Shown piece by piece: positions 30,782 to 43,612 of a stretch of 64,000 bases of DNA. Position 1 is the first letter of the stretch, and each line of letters starts with the position of its first letter. The position numbers and the translations under genes are program-made. The DNA comes from Panacibacter microcysteis. GTDB taxonomy: Bacteria; Bacteroidota; Bacteroidia; Chitinophagales; Chitinophagaceae. Below the pieces are notes generated by a model that worked only from the letters and a program-made list of their open reading frames with translations, was not told where the DNA came from and searched no databases. Location of the stretch: the NCBI RefSeq assembly GCF_015831355.1, contig NZ_JADWYR010000001.1:868001-932000 (forward strand). Reading direction: 5' to 3'.

Positions 30782-30919
30782 TATTTTTTATTTGGGGTGT
30801 AGTGCGTTCTCATAAAACATCAGTAGTCTCATTGGCATTTTACTTTTTTACTTTAAAAAGAATGGGTGATTTTACCGGCAGCGTAACCTATTTTCTGATC
30901 GCTCCCGCTGATATATGAC

Positions 30920-31013: not shown

Positions 31014-32135
31014 TTATTTTACTGACTGTACGTGAATTTCTTTTCCTGTTATGCCGAAATCGAAATCCTGTGCAGCTTTCAGCGCGTAAAACGCTTCTGC
31101 AACAGTCTCCGTTTCGAAAGAACCTGTAAAATTCAACTGTTTTACTGCATCATCATCAAACACAATTTTTACGTTATACCATCTTTCCATCTTACTGGCC
31201 AGTTCTGCAAAACTTTCTCCGCGAAACAACAGCCTGTTATAAACCCAGGCGGTCTCTATTCTTTCATCTTCATGTACTGGTGTGGTAAGTTGTGTTATGT
31301 GGTAGTCGTCAGCAATCTTTGTTTGTGGTGCTTCTCTATCATCAGGCAATATTGTTGTGCTTTCTGCTGCAAGCTTCCCCACAATTAGTTTTTGATTGGG
31401 ATGCAACAGTATAGGTTTTTGAACTTTTGCACCATGCCTTGTTACCTGTACAAGGCCGCGTATAAGGGTTGTTTCAACAGTTTTGTCTGTAACGTAAGAT
31501 TTTACGTTGAAAGCGGTGCCCAATACGCGTATATCATAGCCTGATACATGCACCACAAATGGGCGGTCTGGCAGTTTCACCACATCAAAATACGCCTCCC
31601 CATCGAGGGTTACCTCTCTTGTTTTGCCCGTAAAATCTTTATCGTATGTTACATGAGAGCCTGCATTGAGCCAAACAGTGGAGCCGTCAGGCAAAATAGT
31701 TCTTGTACGGCTGCCATTTTCTGCCACCAGGTTTTGTTTGGCTTCTTTTTCAGGCGGTGTACTGGTGCGTTGGGTACCTGTAAACATCCAGGCCATTATA
31801 AATATTACCAATACGGCTGCCACGCCGCTAAGAGCATAAAAATATTTTCTGCGGGATCTTATTTGTATAACGGGAATATCTTCACCGGGAATTGTTTCTG
31901 TTTTGGCAAGCTGAAGAATACGGGAAATATGGCGGGTATCTTCTTCTATGCTGTTAGGCTCCTCCTTTGTTTCGCCGGGGTGCCACATACGTTTCATAAG
32001 ATCATATTGCTGCTGCAATGCAAAATCCTGCGCCAGGATCTGCATGAGTTGTTCCTGCTCTTCTGCTGTGGCTTCGCCACTAAGGGAGCGGGCCATGAGA
32101 AACCATAAGCTGTTATGAGTTGGTTGGTCTTGCAT
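31014..32135 (-). CDS. FecR-family anti-sigma factor
   Basis: The 373-residue inner-membrane protein has an N-terminal cytoplasmic region of about 90 residues (with EEQEQLMQILAQDFALQQQY) and one membrane helix at about 97-116 (FYALSGVAAVLVIFIMAWMF). A periplasmic FecR domain follows (LPDGSTVWLNAGSHVTY, VTLDGEAYFDV, GTAFNVKSY), then a DUF4974 domain at the end (FAELASKMERWYNVKI, FTGSFETETVAEAFYAL). It should hold the adjacent ECF sigma factor inactive until the STN domain of SusC signals. The gap to the sigma gene is 48 bp. Confidence 0.93.
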   Translation of the reverse strand: MQDQPTHNSLWFLMARSLSGEATAEEQEQLMQILAQDFALQQQYDLMKRMWHPGETKEEPNSIEEDTRHISRILQLAKTETIPGEDIPVIQIRSRRKYFYALSGVAAVLVIFIMAWMFTGTQRTSTPPEKEAKQNLVAENGSRTRTILPDGSTVWLNAGSHVTYDKDFTGKTREVTLDGEAYFDVVKLPDRPFVVHVSGYDIRVLGTAFNVKSYVTDKTVETTLIRGLVQVTRHGAKVQKPILLHPNQKLIVGKLAAESTTILPDDREAPQTKIADDYHITQLTTPVHEDERIETAWVYNRLLFRGESFAELASKMERWYNVKIVFDDDAVKQLNFTGSFETETVAEAFYALKAAQDFDFGITGKEIHVQSVK

Positions 32136-32183
32136 TCAGTATCCATAAAGACATGGAAAAGCCAACGTTCTACTAAAGGAAGG

Positions 32184-32783
32184 TTAAAAATTTCCGGCTT
32201 TTTTTTCTGCGGCGGAAGAAGGGTAATTGCGCCTGGGTTTTTCAAGTTCAAGTGCAGTGCAAATTCTTTTTACCGCAATCGCCATTTGAACATCGATAGT
32301 ATTTACAGAAATATTGAGTATCTGGGAAACTTCTTTGTACTTTAAACCGTCCTCGCGTACCAGCTTAAAGATCATTTTACAACGTGGCGGAAGCTCATCG
32401 ACGGCTTTTTGCATCTGCTGCATCATTTCGCCGGTTATCATCAGCGCGGCAGGGTCTCCTACCGCTTCGCCCATATCTATATCCAGGTAATCAAAAGATT
32501 CAGCAACGAGCTGCTGTGCTTTACGCGATAAAGCGTTGAGCGACTGATTCTTTACCGCAATATAGAGATACACCGTTATGTTGTCAATATCTTTTACCTT
32601 CTCTCTGCGGCTCCACAGTTTTACAAATACGTCATCCACCACCTCTTCAGCAATCTCGTTGCTGCGGGTAAGCAGGCGTGAAAAATGTAAAAGTCTTTTG
32701 TGAAAGCATTTATACAACCCGGCCAGCATTTGCTCATTGCCTTGTGCAATGCCCTGTTGTATGTGCAATAGATCAGTAATCAT
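32184..32783 (-). CDS. ECF RNA polymerase sigma factor (FecI-like, Bacteroidota type)
   Basis: The 199-residue ECF sigma factor has region 2 at about 25-90 (EIAEEVVDDVFVKLW, ITVYLYIAVKNQSLNAL) and region 4 at about 125-180 (ELPPRCKMIFKLVREDGLKYKEVSQILNIS, given here in part as the helix-turn-helix KYKEVSQILNIS). It is the first gene of the minus-strand sigma/fecR/susC/susD series and probably activates the locus promoter(s). The C-terminal tail is basic and Pro/Ser rich. Confidence 0.92.
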   Translation of the reverse strand: MITDLLHIQQGIAQGNEQMLAGLYKCFHKRLLHFSRLLTRSNEIAEEVVDDVFVKLWSRREKVKDIDNITVYLYIAVKNQSLNALSRKAQQLVAESFDYLDIDMGEAVGDPAALMITGEMMQQMQKAVDELPPRCKMIFKLVREDGLKYKEVSQILNISVNTIDVQMAIAVKRICTALELEKPRRNYPSSAAEKKAGNF

Positions 32784-39301: not shown

Positions 39302-39439
39302 AAAACTAACTTGTGCCCGGCTACCTCTTAAGTTGCTAAAATACCTGCTCAACAAAAAACTTTTCCTGCTCAACTTCAAATTTTTCTAAATTTCCGGTTA
39401 CAAGTACACTTTCTGCCCATACATATAAATGTTCACCGC

Positions 39440-40054
39440 ATGGAGATTGCTCAAAGTTACACTGACCCGGAACTTATCAGTGCTTTAAAAAATGACAGGG
39501 AAATGAATGCGGCGATACGCTTTATTTACCGCAATTATTATGGTTTGCTGGAGAATTATATTGTTAATAACAATGGTTCCAAAGACGACGCAGCAGATAT
39601 AATACAGGAAACTATTGTTGCTTTTATTGAAATAGTGGAGGAGAACAGGTTCAGGGGAGAATCGAGTGTAAAATCTTTCCTCTATTCTATAACCCGAAAC
39701 CTCTGGCTTACCGAACTGAGGCGTAAAAACAGCGCTGACAACCGTAACAAAGTTTTTGAAAAAGCAAAAGATACCACGGAGCAGGAAGCCGTTCAACACC
39801 TGATCAAAAAGGAATATTACAATGCCATACAGGCGCTTTTTGAAAAACTGGGAGATAAATGTAAACAACTGCTGATGCTGGTGTATTATGAAGATCTCTC
39901 GATGAGAGATATTGTTGAAAAAATGCCGGATTACCAGAATGAACAGGTGCTTCGCAACAAAAAATACAAGTGCATGAAGCAACTGGAACAAATGATACAG
40001 GACAACGATCAGTTAAAAACACAATTTAAAAATGCTTTGAAAAATGCAGGATAA
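39440..40054 (+). CDS. ECF-type RNA polymerase sigma factor
   Basis: The 204-residue sigma-70-family factor has region 2 at about 20-90 (AADIIQETIVAFIEIV, SVKSFLYSITRNLWLTELRRK) and region 4 at about 125-185 (CKQLLMLVYYEDLSMRDIVEKM as helix-turn-helix, given in part: LSMRDIVEKM). It overlaps the next gene by 11 bp, so the two are translationally coupled. It differs from the FecI-like factor at 32184 and has no TonB receptor nearby. A TPR-CHAT protease gene converges on this pair, which suggests a stress- or damage-responsive regulon (inference). Confidence 0.9.
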   Translation: MEIAQSYTDPELISALKNDREMNAAIRFIYRNYYGLLENYIVNNNGSKDDAADIIQETIVAFIEIVEENRFRGESSVKSFLYSITRNLWLTELRRKNSADNRNKVFEKAKDTTEQEAVQHLIKKEYYNAIQALFEKLGDKCKQLLMLVYYEDLSMRDIVEKMPDYQNEQVLRNKKYKCMKQLEQMIQDNDQLKTQFKNALKNAG

Positions 40055-40817
40055 TTCTACATACGACATTATTGAAACGCTTACCCGGTACGTGGATGAT
40101 GAGATGGATGAGGCGGAAAAAGCTGCAACAACATCTATGATCAACAATGATGCTGAAGTAAAAGAACGTTACGAAAACCTGCTTGCCGCAAAAAGGGCCA
40201 TCAGGTCTAAAGGGCTGAAAGAAAGAGTACACGCAATACATCTTGCATATGCCAATGAAATTGCACAACCGGAAGTGGCCAAAATAGTAAAGCCTTCGTT
40301 TGGTATAAAAATGATGATGCGCATAGCCGCTGTGCTTATATTGGTTGTGGCAGGCATGGGCGTGTACACATACAGCACCACAAACAATGAAAATGTTTTT
40401 GAAGAAAATTTTACAGGTTACCAGTTGCCGGTAAACAGGGGTGCAGGCCAGTTTACAAACATAGACTCTTTATACGCCGGCGGTGCATACGAAGCAGTAA
40501 TTGATGCGGTGAACAAAACACAGATTAAAACACGGCAGGCATATTTTCTGGCGGCACAGGCTTACCTGCTTACCGGTAACCCTGCCGGGGCTATCACAGC
40601 TTTTAAAAATGTAGAGCAATTAAACAGTAGTGCCACAGACCAATATTTTGTACAGGAAACAGATTATTACCTGGCACTTGCTTATATAAAAATGAATGAC
40701 ATTACGAATGCCGAAAAGCAATTGGCAAAGATCTCTTCGAATCCGAAACATTTGTTTTACAGCAAAGCAAAGTCAATCAGCAATACAACCCTCACCATTC
40801 TGAAGTGGAAGCAATAA
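40044..40817 (+). CDS. Membrane anti-sigma-like protein with TPR-like periplasmic domain
   Basis: The 257-residue protein has a cytoplasmic N-terminus of ~88 residues (YDIIETLTRYVDDEMDEAEK, AEVKERYENLLAAKR) of the kind seen in Bacteroidota anti-sigma factors. One membrane helix lies at about 91-108 (MRIAAVLILVVAGMGVY). An extracytoplasmic region with tetratricopeptide-like helices follows (AYFLAAQAYLLTGNPAGAI, YYLALAYIKMNDITNAEKQL). There is no HxxxCxxC zinc motif. The coupled sigma gene supports an anti-sigma role. Its C-terminal half is a plausible target or partner of the convergent TPR-CHAT protease. The gene ends 29 bp before that gene's stop. Confidence 0.75.
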   Translation: MQDNSTYDIIETLTRYVDDEMDEAEKAATTSMINNDAEVKERYENLLAAKRAIRSKGLKERVHAIHLAYANEIAQPEVAKIVKPSFGIKMMMRIAAVLILVVAGMGVYTYSTTNNENVFEENFTGYQLPVNRGAGQFTNIDSLYAGGAYEAVIDAVNKTQIKTRQAYFLAAQAYLLTGNPAGAITAFKNVEQLNSSATDQYFVQETDYYLALAYIKMNDITNAEKQLAKISSNPKHLFYSKAKSISNTTLTILKWKQ

Positions 40818-40846
40818 ACAAAGTGCACAATGATTTTCATCAACGC

Positions 40847-43612
40847 TTATGCTGCAGCTTTTCTCCTTGATTTCTGAAAGGCAAGCAGGACAATAACAGC
40901 AACCAATACTACAACAACCCACAGCCAGTATGCCGGCGATTGTTGCTGCACATCGCCGATAAAAATAAGGTTGCTCCAATATTGCGGTGAATGATACTGG
41001 CTCATGGACTCATCCTGCAACAAATCTACTTTAGCCTGCCGCAATGCTGCTGCGTAAGTATAACCTTTTGCGGTGTAACCATAAAACCTGTTGCTGATGT
41101 ATGCGGTAGTTTTATCTTCTGCTTTCCATAATGAAGTGATGATATTGGGACACCCGGCAAATGCAAACGCCCTTGATAAACTGAGCGCGCCTTCACTCTG
41201 AGATATCTTACCACTGCCTGTTTCGCATGCACTAAGAAAAACAAGGTCTGTTTTTGTCAACTGCATGTTGTACAATTCATGCGCGAAGACTTTATACCCG
41301 GTATCTTTTGTATTGTTGTTAAAAAAAGCAATAAACGATTGCGAAGGTTCATTGTAATTAACGGCGGCATGCGTGGCAAGGTGGATAGCGTGTGCCCCTG
41401 GTGCCCTGGTAAGAAAATGCTCCTTCGTTGCTGCTGTATCTACAAAACGATTACCAGCCGGAAAATCATTAATTTCTTCTTTGGAAGAAGGAAGCACCTG
41501 CAGGCCGTGGCTGCCGGCACTTGCAAAAGGCGCAAAAGCAATGCTGTTATTTTTATCAAAGCTTTCCACGGAGTTGTGTAAAAACGGAAGCGCATATTGG
41601 TAAGTAATGCTAAAACGCTCAAGCAAATATTTGCCATCAACATCTTCAAAAGCTTCAAAAGGAATATTGATCAGTTCCTTATCCGGTATTATAATGATAT
41701 GGTCTATACCTGCAAGATGATCTGCCAGTGGTTTAATAAGCTGAGCATACAAATACCTGGCATTGGCATTGTTATACAGCTTACCAGGTGTTACTCCTGT
41801 CAGCTCATTGATGTAATTTTCAATAGCCGCAAATAACAGTGAATCTTTGGAAAGATCCTCTTCGATAATCGCGTCATGTTTTACCAGAAAAGCCTTCAGG
41901 GTGTTTGACCCGCTGTAATAACAAATTGCGGCAGAGTTGGCATTGAGTACGTTTTGTTGAATAAGATCGATGTTTACATTGTCTGCCGCAAACTTTTGCT
42001 GATAATAAGCCGGGAATTTTTTGTATTCATTTTGCAGGGATTGAAGTTGCAACGCACTCGTGTTGATTGCAGACAGCAACTCATTCTGGCTGCTGCTGTC
42101 AGTTGTTTGCTGTAGCTGCAACTGCATTCTCGATAACCCTATTTTTAAGTTCTTTTCTCTTTGCAACAACGAATCCGGCAATCCTGCATAACTTTTGATC
42201 CTGTTCTCTTTCAGGCCGATGGCCAGCGAGGTAGCCCTGCTTTCGCTGATCCACTCAAGGGCATGTTTTACCAGCCGCGAATCATTTTTTGTATTGGCTG
42301 CAATAATGAAATCTACGGCTGCCCGGTATGCGTCAACAACTTTATCTGCTATAAACAGGCGTGCTTCGTCGTTATCTATCGATTTTTTAATATAATCTGC
42401 CAGTGCAAACGCCGAATCAAAAGTACTCCTGGCCGCATCAAAGAACTGCCCGGTTTTGTTTTGTGTATATAAGCGTGTAAAACATATTGCTTTTGCTGTC
42501 AATGCATCGAACAGATCATAACTGGCAAAGTCTCCAATAAAATTTCCGGGATTGGCATACACATTAGTGTCGTTAAACTTAAAGCTATGCTGGATCAACG
42601 ATTGCTGGTAGTACTTTAAAGCTGCTGTATAATTTTGCTGCTGCACATACATGTCTCCAAAATATTTGCATGTGGCCCCGTAATAGTTGTTTTTCTGGCC
42701 AGCCGGCTTTTGCCTGTATGTTTCTGACGCTTTATTTAAATAAAACATCGCTGAGTCTGTACTTCGTTTTTGCAGGTATGCCCTCGCAAGAGAATTATAA
42801 AAGTTGATCGCGTAATTGCCATCTATATTCCTGGCTTTAGAGAGGTAGTACAAAGCACTGTCCGGCATATGCCTGGTGAGATAAATGCCGCCCAGATTGT
42901 TAAGTACCGGCAAGGAAGGCCCGGTGGGATCTATTAATGCTGTATACAAATGTATGGCAGAATCAAGGTTGCCTGAAAACCTTACAGCGGCTGCAATATT
43001 TGCTGACATGGCGAAGATTGCTTCTTTAAGATCGGGTCTTGTTTGTTCCGTTACCTCCAGCGCTTTTTTGAAATAATAGCCGCTTTGCATATAGTCTCCT
43101 GACTCACTATACAATGCCCCGAGCGAGTTGTATAAGTCGCCGGCAAGACCTGCGTCAGGGTACCGGGTGATAACATCCTCAGCGTTCCGGAGGTAATACA
43201 GTGAGGAATCGAATGAACCTTCAGTATAATACATATTGCCCGCTGAAAGGTAGAGCCTGAATGCAATGGAATCAGTCAGCTTAAACCGGTTGAGTACCTC
43301 CAACGCAGCGTAGTATTCCTGTAAAACATTTGTGGAGTTATAACCAAGACCCTGCATAAGTATGCCGGCTCTTTCATGCGCATCGTATAGTAACGGAGCA
43401 GTTTTTACCGAGGGTTGTAACTTTTGGGTAATTGTGCGATAGTACTGTAACGCAACTGAGTCTGTTTCAGCAGTAGCAACACCATTAAATAACGTTTCTG
43501 CCTTGTCAAAAAGGACGTAGAGAGATTGCTCATCTCTCTCATCCTGGCTTTGCAGAACGGAGAAGACAAGCAATAGGAGCGCAACCGGTAAAAAGAATAG
43601 TTTATGCCGCAT
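40847..43612 (-). CDS. Membrane-anchored TPR-CHAT caspase-like protease
   Basis: I start at the ATG at 43612 (921 residues); the TTG six codons upstream is less likely because it lies inside a -7-like box (minus strand TTACTTTG). A signal or anchor segment (FFLPVALLLLVFSVLQSQ) opens the protein. About 10 TPR-like helical repeats span roughly residues 30-390 (ALEVLNRF, GDLYNSLGALYSESGDY, ALKYYQQSL). A helical linker leads to the CHAT domain at about 610-890, a caspase-like cysteine protease fold. The catalytic dyad is His748 (HLATHA) and Cys796 (FLSACETG), both present. A C-terminal membrane helix (WLWVVVVLVAVIVLLAF) ends in a basic tail. The TPR-CHAT domain would then sit in the periplasm. 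The target is unknown. Confidence 0.87.
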   Translation of the reverse strand: MRHKLFFLPVALLLLVFSVLQSQDERDEQSLYVLFDKAETLFNGVATAETDSVALQYYRTITQKLQPSVKTAPLLYDAHERAGILMQGLGYNSTNVLQEYYAALEVLNRFKLTDSIAFRLYLSAGNMYYTEGSFDSSLYYLRNAEDVITRYPDAGLAGDLYNSLGALYSESGDYMQSGYYFKKALEVTEQTRPDLKEAIFAMSANIAAAVRFSGNLDSAIHLYTALIDPTGPSLPVLNNLGGIYLTRHMPDSALYYLSKARNIDGNYAINFYNSLARAYLQKRSTDSAMFYLNKASETYRQKPAGQKNNYYGATCKYFGDMYVQQQNYTAALKYYQQSLIQHSFKFNDTNVYANPGNFIGDFASYDLFDALTAKAICFTRLYTQNKTGQFFDAARSTFDSAFALADYIKKSIDNDEARLFIADKVVDAYRAAVDFIIAANTKNDSRLVKHALEWISESRATSLAIGLKENRIKSYAGLPDSLLQREKNLKIGLSRMQLQLQQTTDSSSQNELLSAINTSALQLQSLQNEYKKFPAYYQQKFAADNVNIDLIQQNVLNANSAAICYYSGSNTLKAFLVKHDAIIEEDLSKDSLLFAAIENYINELTGVTPGKLYNNANARYLYAQLIKPLADHLAGIDHIIIIPDKELINIPFEAFEDVDGKYLLERFSITYQYALPFLHNSVESFDKNNSIAFAPFASAGSHGLQVLPSSKEEINDFPAGNRFVDTAATKEHFLTRAPGAHAIHLATHAAVNYNEPSQSFIAFFNNNTKDTGYKVFAHELYNMQLTKTDLVFLSACETGSGKISQSEGALSLSRAFAFAGCPNIITSLWKAEDKTTAYISNRFYGYTAKGYTYAAALRQAKVDLLQDESMSQYHSPQYWSNLIFIGDVQQQSPAYWLWVVVVLVAVIVLLAFQKSRRKAAA

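Follow-up and report, generated by a model that had tools for sequence, protein, structure and literature searches.

Does the CHAT-domain protein encoded next to an extracytoplasmic function (ECF) sigma factor and its membrane anti-sigma protein in Panacibacter microcysteis act as the protease that frees the sigma factor? The three genes occupy positions 39,440 to 43,612 of a 64,000-nucleotide stretch of this bacterium (RefSeq assembly GCF_015831355.1, contig NZ_JADWYR010000001.1, positions 868,001 to 932,000, forward strand), which we refer to as the window. We consider it probable that the CHAT protein is a protease that cuts the anti-sigma protein at a site marked by Arg132. This prediction is based on the linkage of the genes, the shared compartment of their products, the conservation of Arg132, the covariation between anti-sigma residue 132 and CHAT residues 713 and 833, and the invariant catalytic dyad. 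It is further based on folds shared with Csx29 and separase, on a promoter motif, and on the presence of an M50 protease in the genome. The best explanation of the locus is a protease-gated ECF sigma pathway with the CHAT protein as the predicted site-1 protease.

The initial annotation described an ECF sigma gene, a coupled gene for a membrane anti-sigma protein with a TPR-like outer domain, and a convergent gene for a 921-residue TPR-CHAT protein. We confirmed the three open reading frames (ORFs) with the same coordinates and strands, and the Pfam and NCBIfam matches agree with this description.

39440..40054, + strand: ECF sigma factor, 204 aa (Sigma70_r2, 2.9e-10, Pfam; ECF superfamily, 9.5e-18, NCBIfam)
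40044..40817, + strand: membrane anti-sigma protein with periplasmic TPR domain, 257 aa (TPR_6, 3.6e-6)
40311..40367, + strand: anti-sigma transmembrane (TM) segment, aa 90-108 (hydropathy; N-in charge in 88/106 homologues)
40847..43612, - strand: predicted TPR-CHAT protease, 921 aa, with signal peptide and C-terminal membrane anchor (CHAT PF12770, 1.7e-54)
43544..43600, - strand: core of the CHAT N-terminal signal sequence, aa 5-23 (hydrophobic segment)
40952..41764, - strand: CHAT domain, aa 617-887 (Pfam)
41369..41371, - strand: codon of catalytic His748, numbered from M1 of the 921 aa (invariant)
41225..41227, - strand: codon of catalytic Cys796 (invariant)
40877..40933, - strand: CHAT C-terminal TM anchor, aa 894-912 (positive residues after the TM segment)

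The anti-sigma ORF shares 11 nt with the sigma ORF and is translationally coupled to it, and among 110 such pairs most overlap or lie at most 15 nt apart. A single TM segment is present in 105 of 116 homologues. The AlphaFold2 (AF2) model (predicted local distance difference test, pLDDT, 92) places helices at residues 4–73, a TM helix at 87–112, a coil at 123–138 and a TPR domain at 139–256. A fold search with the anti-sigma protein returned YbgF and BamD, matched through the TPR domain with Z scores of about 13; the matches listed comprised TPR domains only and did not include Csx30. The Pfam scan likewise gave TPR families only, with no anti-sigma family, and the N-terminal part taken alone resembles short anti-sigma-like proteins of 165–200 aa. 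As judged from its sequence, the protein is a membrane ECF anti-sigma, being coupled to the sigma gene and having a cytoplasmic N-terminal helical domain and one TM segment; sigma binding and inhibition are its predicted role.

The CHAT gene lies 29 nt from the anti-sigma ORF in convergent orientation, and its product also matches TPR_12 (6.1e-17). The intact His748/Cys796 dyad reported earlier is correctly numbered, and it is invariant in 44 of 44 family orthologues and in all 87 examined CHAT proteins paired with an anti-sigma, whether these belong to the Arg or the Met class defined below. In the model, strands 742–750 and 790–793 precede His748 and Cys796, at the ends of β3 and β4. By domain content and dyad position, the protein is a clan CD TPR-CHAT with predicted proteolytic activity. 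The N-terminal signal and C-terminal helix noted in the initial annotation correspond to residues 5–23 and 894–912; the C-terminal TM segment is kept in 83 of 88 CHAT proteins, 77 of these 83 having a C-in charge pattern. Because the CHAT protein has a signal sequence and a C-in TM segment and the anti-sigma protein an N-in TM segment, our prediction is that the CHAT domain faces the periplasm from the inner membrane, as does the TPR domain of the anti-sigma. A different compartment for each was the outcome that the earlier proposal had named as speaking against it.

We surveyed 294 genomes of the family, and 395 genomes of the phylum for anti-sigma matches. In the family, 51 genomes carry strong anti-sigma matches and 50 carry CHAT orthologues. 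The two occur together in 48 of the 53 genomes that have either (Fisher p 6e-49), and they are usually adjacent. Almost all family loci, at about 30% protein identity, follow the order sigma> anti-sigma> [DUF4382>] <CHAT <LIPX, where LIPX denotes a lipoprotein gene that adjoins CHAT in 51 of 53 orthologous CHAT loci; the two exceptions, with no LIPX call next to CHAT, are L112 and the window. Within the stretch examined around each, 44 of these 53 loci have a convergent anti-sigma gene, and most of the others lie at contig ends. When anti-sigma matches in the family and the phylum were picked irrespective of CHAT, most of them, too, had a CHAT gene nearby. Loci with no CHAT gene in the examined region include L222, L228, L230, L235 and L247. 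Across the phylum the layout may be convergent, a co-directional sigma–anti-sigma–CHAT operon, or one with CHAT upstream on the other strand. Conservation of this neighbourhood in other Bacteroidota, the check suggested at the outset, is thus borne out and exceeds chance in the genomes compared; linkage in several layouts points to function rather than inherited order.

This linkage bears on whether the sigma and anti-sigma genes are an ordinary FecI/FecR-type surface signalling pair that happens to adjoin a CHAT gene. Such pairs are common in Bacteroidota, and like them the locus combines an ECF sigma with a one-TM anti-sigma. However, ORF 40044–40817 gave no FecR domain match, there is no adjacent TonB-dependent receptor or transducer, the locus encodes a predicted protease, and the CHAT linkage is conserved. 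We rejected FecI/FecR identity on domain content and conserved linkage, and regard a chance juxtaposition of this kind as extremely improbable. A separate FecI/FecR-type pair at window positions 31014–32783 serves as a contrast case, its ORF 31014–32135 matching FecR at 1.5e-16.

In one group of variant loci (L240:7127-9079 and its relatives L200, L216, L220, L226, L231, L234 and L244), the upstream CHAT gene stands beside a gene for a protein of about 650 aa with PKD and outer-membrane-barrel-like domains (DUF7619, DUF7849), possibly an outer-membrane sensor or partner.

Where would the anti-sigma protein be cut? Among 48 family anti-sigma sequences, which share 21–59% identity with that of the window (overall about 28%), the only invariant residues are M1, Arg132 and Ile230, leaving Arg132 as the sole internal invariant residue besides Ile230. 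It lies in the coil at 123–138 that links the TM helix to the TPR domain in the AF2 model. More broadly, in 110 of 113 anti-sigma proteins the linker Arg or Met has Gly, Ser or Asp as its next residue. The distance from the TM end to this residue in the 113 sequences is 23.4 ± 3.8 aa for Arg and 23.6 ± 1.9 aa for Met. The corresponding site and the CHAT residues that vary with it are as follows.

40437..40442, + strand: predicted cleavage site Arg132-Gly133 of the anti-sigma (conservation, TM distance, covariation with CHAT 713/833)
41474..41476, - strand: Glu713, predicted S1-pocket acid on L1/α1 (Glu in 67/67 Arg-type pairs; Leu, Ala, Gly, Phe or Ser in 20/20 Met-type pairs)
41114..41116, - strand: Asp833 (W829-x3-D), predicted S1-pocket residue after β5 (Asp in 67/67 Arg-type pairs; Glu in 19/20 Met-type pairs)

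To compare the partners, each anti-sigma was matched to its nearest CHAT, giving 88 pairs with 321 usable CHAT columns and 229 anti-sigma columns. A linker Arg (67 pairs) always occurs with CHAT Glu713 and Asp833, and a truncated anti-sigma (L157) likewise stands beside a CHAT of the Glu/Asp type. A linker Met (20 pairs: 16 by alignment and 4 with the Met one residue off the aligned column) is always found without Glu713, which is replaced by Leu in 10 pairs, Ala in 7, and Gly, Phe and Ser in one each. CHAT columns 713 and 833 rank first and second of the 321 in separating the two classes; on the anti-sigma side, two of 229 columns separate them perfectly, one being column 132. Both CHAT residues are among the ten columns invariant in the Arg class (707, 713, 744, 748, 796, 801, 808, 829, 833 and 879). 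The cleavage model has thereby gained a specific prediction that was not foreseen, namely an invariant Arg (or Met) about 23 aa from the membrane that covaries with the predicted CHAT S1 pocket.

In clan CD proteases, P1 specificity is set by L1/α1, L4 and L5 (PMC4357240). Arg at P1 is bound by an acid, on α1 or, in separase (Glu917), between β1 and α1; gingipain Asp163 and MALT1 Asp365 are further examples, and a residue after β5 also contributes (PMC4626109). In our model, Glu713 follows β1 (690–694) in a short helix (710–713) and Asp833 follows β5, so that by their place in the fold both are predicted to match known S1 positions.

Binding alone would also produce gene linkage and a conserved linker. 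The CHAT protein could then serve as sensor or scaffold by docking at the linker motif, and another protease, for example an HtrA/DegS-like or tail-specific one, would make the cut; the CHAT of the Myxococcus anti-sigma DdvA (8rot) shows that such domains can join anti-sigma signalling. Against this, His and Cys are invariant in 87 of 87 paired CHAT proteins, and the linker covaries with the position where S1 specificity would be expected, not with a patch on the surface. We judge a docking role decidedly unlikely.

The co-directional operons at L048, L052, L053, L191-L205, L218, L249 and L250, with a linker Met and a hydrophobic or small residue at 713, form a natural specificity series.

A predicted two-box promoter motif would connect the sigma factor to its own operon and, in relatives, to the CHAT operon.

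39396..39431, + strand: predicted ECF promoter of the sigma operon, GGTTACA-N15-CATACATATAAATG, 44 nt 5' of the sigma start

Scanning with the pattern G[GA]TTAC[AG]-N17-[TG]AC, with expectations taken from shuffled sequences, we found the motif GGTTACA-N15-NNTAC in front of sigma orthologues in 28 of 45 cases (0.1 expected) and of LIPX-CHAT operons in 14 of 50 (0.15 expected). Of 18 DUF4382 genes 7 have it as well, as do 13 of 374 further genes in the vicinity, the latter almost all beginning with a lipoprotein-like signal. In part of the family, DUF4382 and lipocalin-like lipoprotein genes are inserted between the anti-sigma and CHAT genes (L035:5411-6656, L114, L116, L118); these genes, several of which carry the sigma motif, are probable regulon members. 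Within the genome of the window, a strict scan for GGTTACA-N17-TAC gave 27 matches against 21 in reversed controls, no better than chance except for the sigma site. A tighter pattern gave 3 matches and none in the control, and is supporting only, having been drawn up after two sites had been seen.

These motif sites would also be expected if CHAT and LIPX were merely sigma target genes kept nearby, with another envelope protein as the substrate. That arrangement would leave unexplained both the pairing of anti-sigma 132 with CHAT 713/833 and the linkage at the 36 of 50 loci, the window included, where the CHAT operon has no motif; we find it highly improbable.

LIPX is a likely fourth part of the circuit. 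It has no Pfam or NCBIfam match. Common to 45 LIPX sequences are a lipobox Cys and, at the C terminus, an invariant Arg-Pro-Pro with Ile/Val after it. The Arg before Pro would suit an Arg-type S1 pocket and stay uncut, and we would guess that LIPX acts as a brake. In the genome of the window, LIPX lies 1.05 Mb away (G000:C1:1957491-1959443; L208:7490-9450), next to two PepSY-like small secreted genes bearing variants of the sigma motif. The left flank of this group is a gene for a sugar isomerase-like lipoprotein, which in relatives adjoins an undivided PepSY-LIPX-CHAT block, and this common flank indicates that a rearrangement split the locus in the window genome.

Several observations weigh against the proposed cleavage. 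The CHAT gene of the window has no obvious promoter motif and no operon partner LIPX. Some anti-sigma loci keep the linker Arg with no CHAT nearby (for example L222 and L228), and the pocket geometry is deduced from secondary structure and the literature, not from distances. In a tree of the CHAT domain built with columns 713 and 833 removed, the Met-type proteins form two supported clades (15 and 4 rows) plus the long-branched L204. The fewest Arg-to-Met switches on this tree is 3, and well-supported branches force only 1, so the switch may rest on one to three independent events, with clade hitchhiking possible. As read from these alignments, the pairing is strong in content and thin in events.

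The tree thus leaves room for the linker residue and CHAT 713/833 to be lineage markers of two whole-module clades, since more than one switch is not strictly forced; other clade-specific columns also exist, such as anti-sigma 168 and 165. Nevertheless, the best two of 321 CHAT columns both fall at expected S1 positions, and in the best tree the Met clades sit in two separately supported places, with L204 in addition. Exceptions in layout track the pocket instead: L204 is convergent yet Met-type, and L219 is co-directional yet Arg-type; these two loci also led us to reject the idea that gene orientation underlies the Arg/Met difference. L239, with Ser713 and Asp833, has a linker Met. Finally, in our alignment the W+4 position is Ser in Csx29, a protease that cleaves after Met427 or Leu407, and Csx29 Lys670 takes the place of separase D2151. 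We consider simple lineage marking unlikely, and retain cleavage by the CHAT protein as the preferred reading.

How does this system relate to known ones? The AF2 model of the CHAT protein (pLDDT 86) has Csx29 (Z 28.6) and separase (Z 25.6; 2.9 Å over 301 residues) as its best solved folds; for the PDB sequence search a profile of the CHAT domain alone was used, whole-protein queries being swamped by designed TPRs. In the type III-E Craspase (Csx29, Csx30, CASP-sigma; PMC10028731, PMC9729208), a protease of the same TPR-CHAT fold is encoded beside a sigma inhibitor and an ECF sigma, and the pathway is proposed to be triggered when the inhibitor is cut. Csx29 cuts Csx30 after Met or Leu (PMC10028731, PMC9729208), and one class of the present systems likewise has a predicted P1 Met. 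In contrast, the present locus has no Cas7-11, CRISPR RNA, CRISPR array or Csx30 homology, its partners are membrane proteins with periplasmic domains, and its predicted P1 Arg goes with Glu713 and Asp833, whereas Csx29 lacks both the W+4 acid and a counterpart of separase D2151. We found no CRISPR-like array in window positions 30–52 kb, no Rfam match in the whole window and no NCBIfam Csx30 match for the anti-sigma, in line with the initial annotation, which had seen no CRISPR component. The CHAT protein scored 20.7 bits in the Csx29 equivalog test against a cut-off of 300. Craspase membership was rejected on the array, Csx30 and equivalog results.

Another functional parallel is DegS/RseA/sigmaE, the predicted common features being a periplasmic membrane-anchored site-1 protease and a one-TM anti-sigma cut near the membrane, on its periplasmic side, in envelope signalling. 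The present predicted protease differs in being of the clan CD cysteine type with TPRs rather than a PDZ serine protease, the outer domain of the anti-sigma is a TPR domain, and the two systems are unrelated in sequence. DdvA (PDB 8rot, 8rw5; fold Z 21.3, profile match 1.6e-13) carries a CHAT fused to a transmembrane anti-sigma in one chain, whereas here the CHAT is a separate protein. Separase (ctSPD, 5fby, 5fc3) shares the protease fold and the P1 Arg specificity predicted here, with an acidic S1 residue between β1 and α1, but cuts cohesin, has 12% identity to the window CHAT and is regulated differently. By analogy, the system is predicted to work like DegS/RseA and Csx29/Csx30, with cleavage of the anti-sigma, yet it is not a Craspase. 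The literature searched, with subscription journals outside the search, contained no periplasmic CHAT/anti-sigma system and only Craspase papers.

Given these features, we propose the following sequence of events. The TPR part of the CHAT protein would receive an envelope signal, possibly through LIPX, and the activated CHAT domain would cleave the anti-sigma on the C-terminal side of Arg132, within the coil and some 23 residues from the membrane. With the TPR domain gone, a site-2 protease and cytoplasmic proteases would be able to remove the rest of the anti-sigma and release sigma; an RseP/M50 homologue in the genome (PF02163, 2.6e-54, G000:C1:2170635) is a site-2 candidate. The freed sigma would recognize GGTTACA-N15-NNTAC and raise expression of its own operon and of small envelope genes and, in relatives, of the LIPX-CHAT operon. 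The earlier proposal that CHAT cuts the anti-sigma and frees sigma is supported, cleavage itself being a prediction.

A wider generalization can be offered tentatively. It is possible, though less likely than not, that a widespread family of CRISPR-independent periplasmic caspase/separase-type site-1 proteases gates ECF sigmas across Bacteroidota, with lineage-specific co-switches of P1 (Arg or Met) and S1 pocket and the LIPX Arg-Pro-Pro-x-(Ile/Val)3 tail as an uncleavable pseudo-substrate brake, and that the Craspase sigma module derived from such a system. If the cleavage model for the present locus holds, caspase/separase-type proteolysis, beyond its place in CRISPR and cell death, would be part of everyday envelope signalling in a major bacterial phylum, many CHAT genes would gain a substrate, and the puzzling protease–sigma part of Craspase would acquire a non-CRISPR context. 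The idea is cheap to test, involving one substrate residue, two protease residues and the natural specificity-switch series. The LIPX partner and the promoter motif are additions to what the initial annotation described.

Elsewhere in the same genome, we found no second copy of the window anti-sigma and one other CHAT gene of different architecture (G000:C2:198546-203867; L161:6546-11867). Its 1773-aa product combines DUF7379, LCAT-like hydrolase, CHAT and TPR-S domains, and resembles conflict or defence effectors. Neighbours of the locus in the window are GGT, peptidase M3, GHL10 and DUF5606 genes. An interspersed repeat, TGTTGCGTCGCACnCTTGTAC, occurs on both strands at window positions 30917, 32934, 34120, 38167, 39240, 46100, 46305, 51393 and 51577. 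It has 802 matches genome-wide at no more than 2 mismatches (441 forward, 361 reverse), against 0 for the reversed pattern, and a similar repeat lies 5' of the sigma gene in a locus of the same genus (L034).

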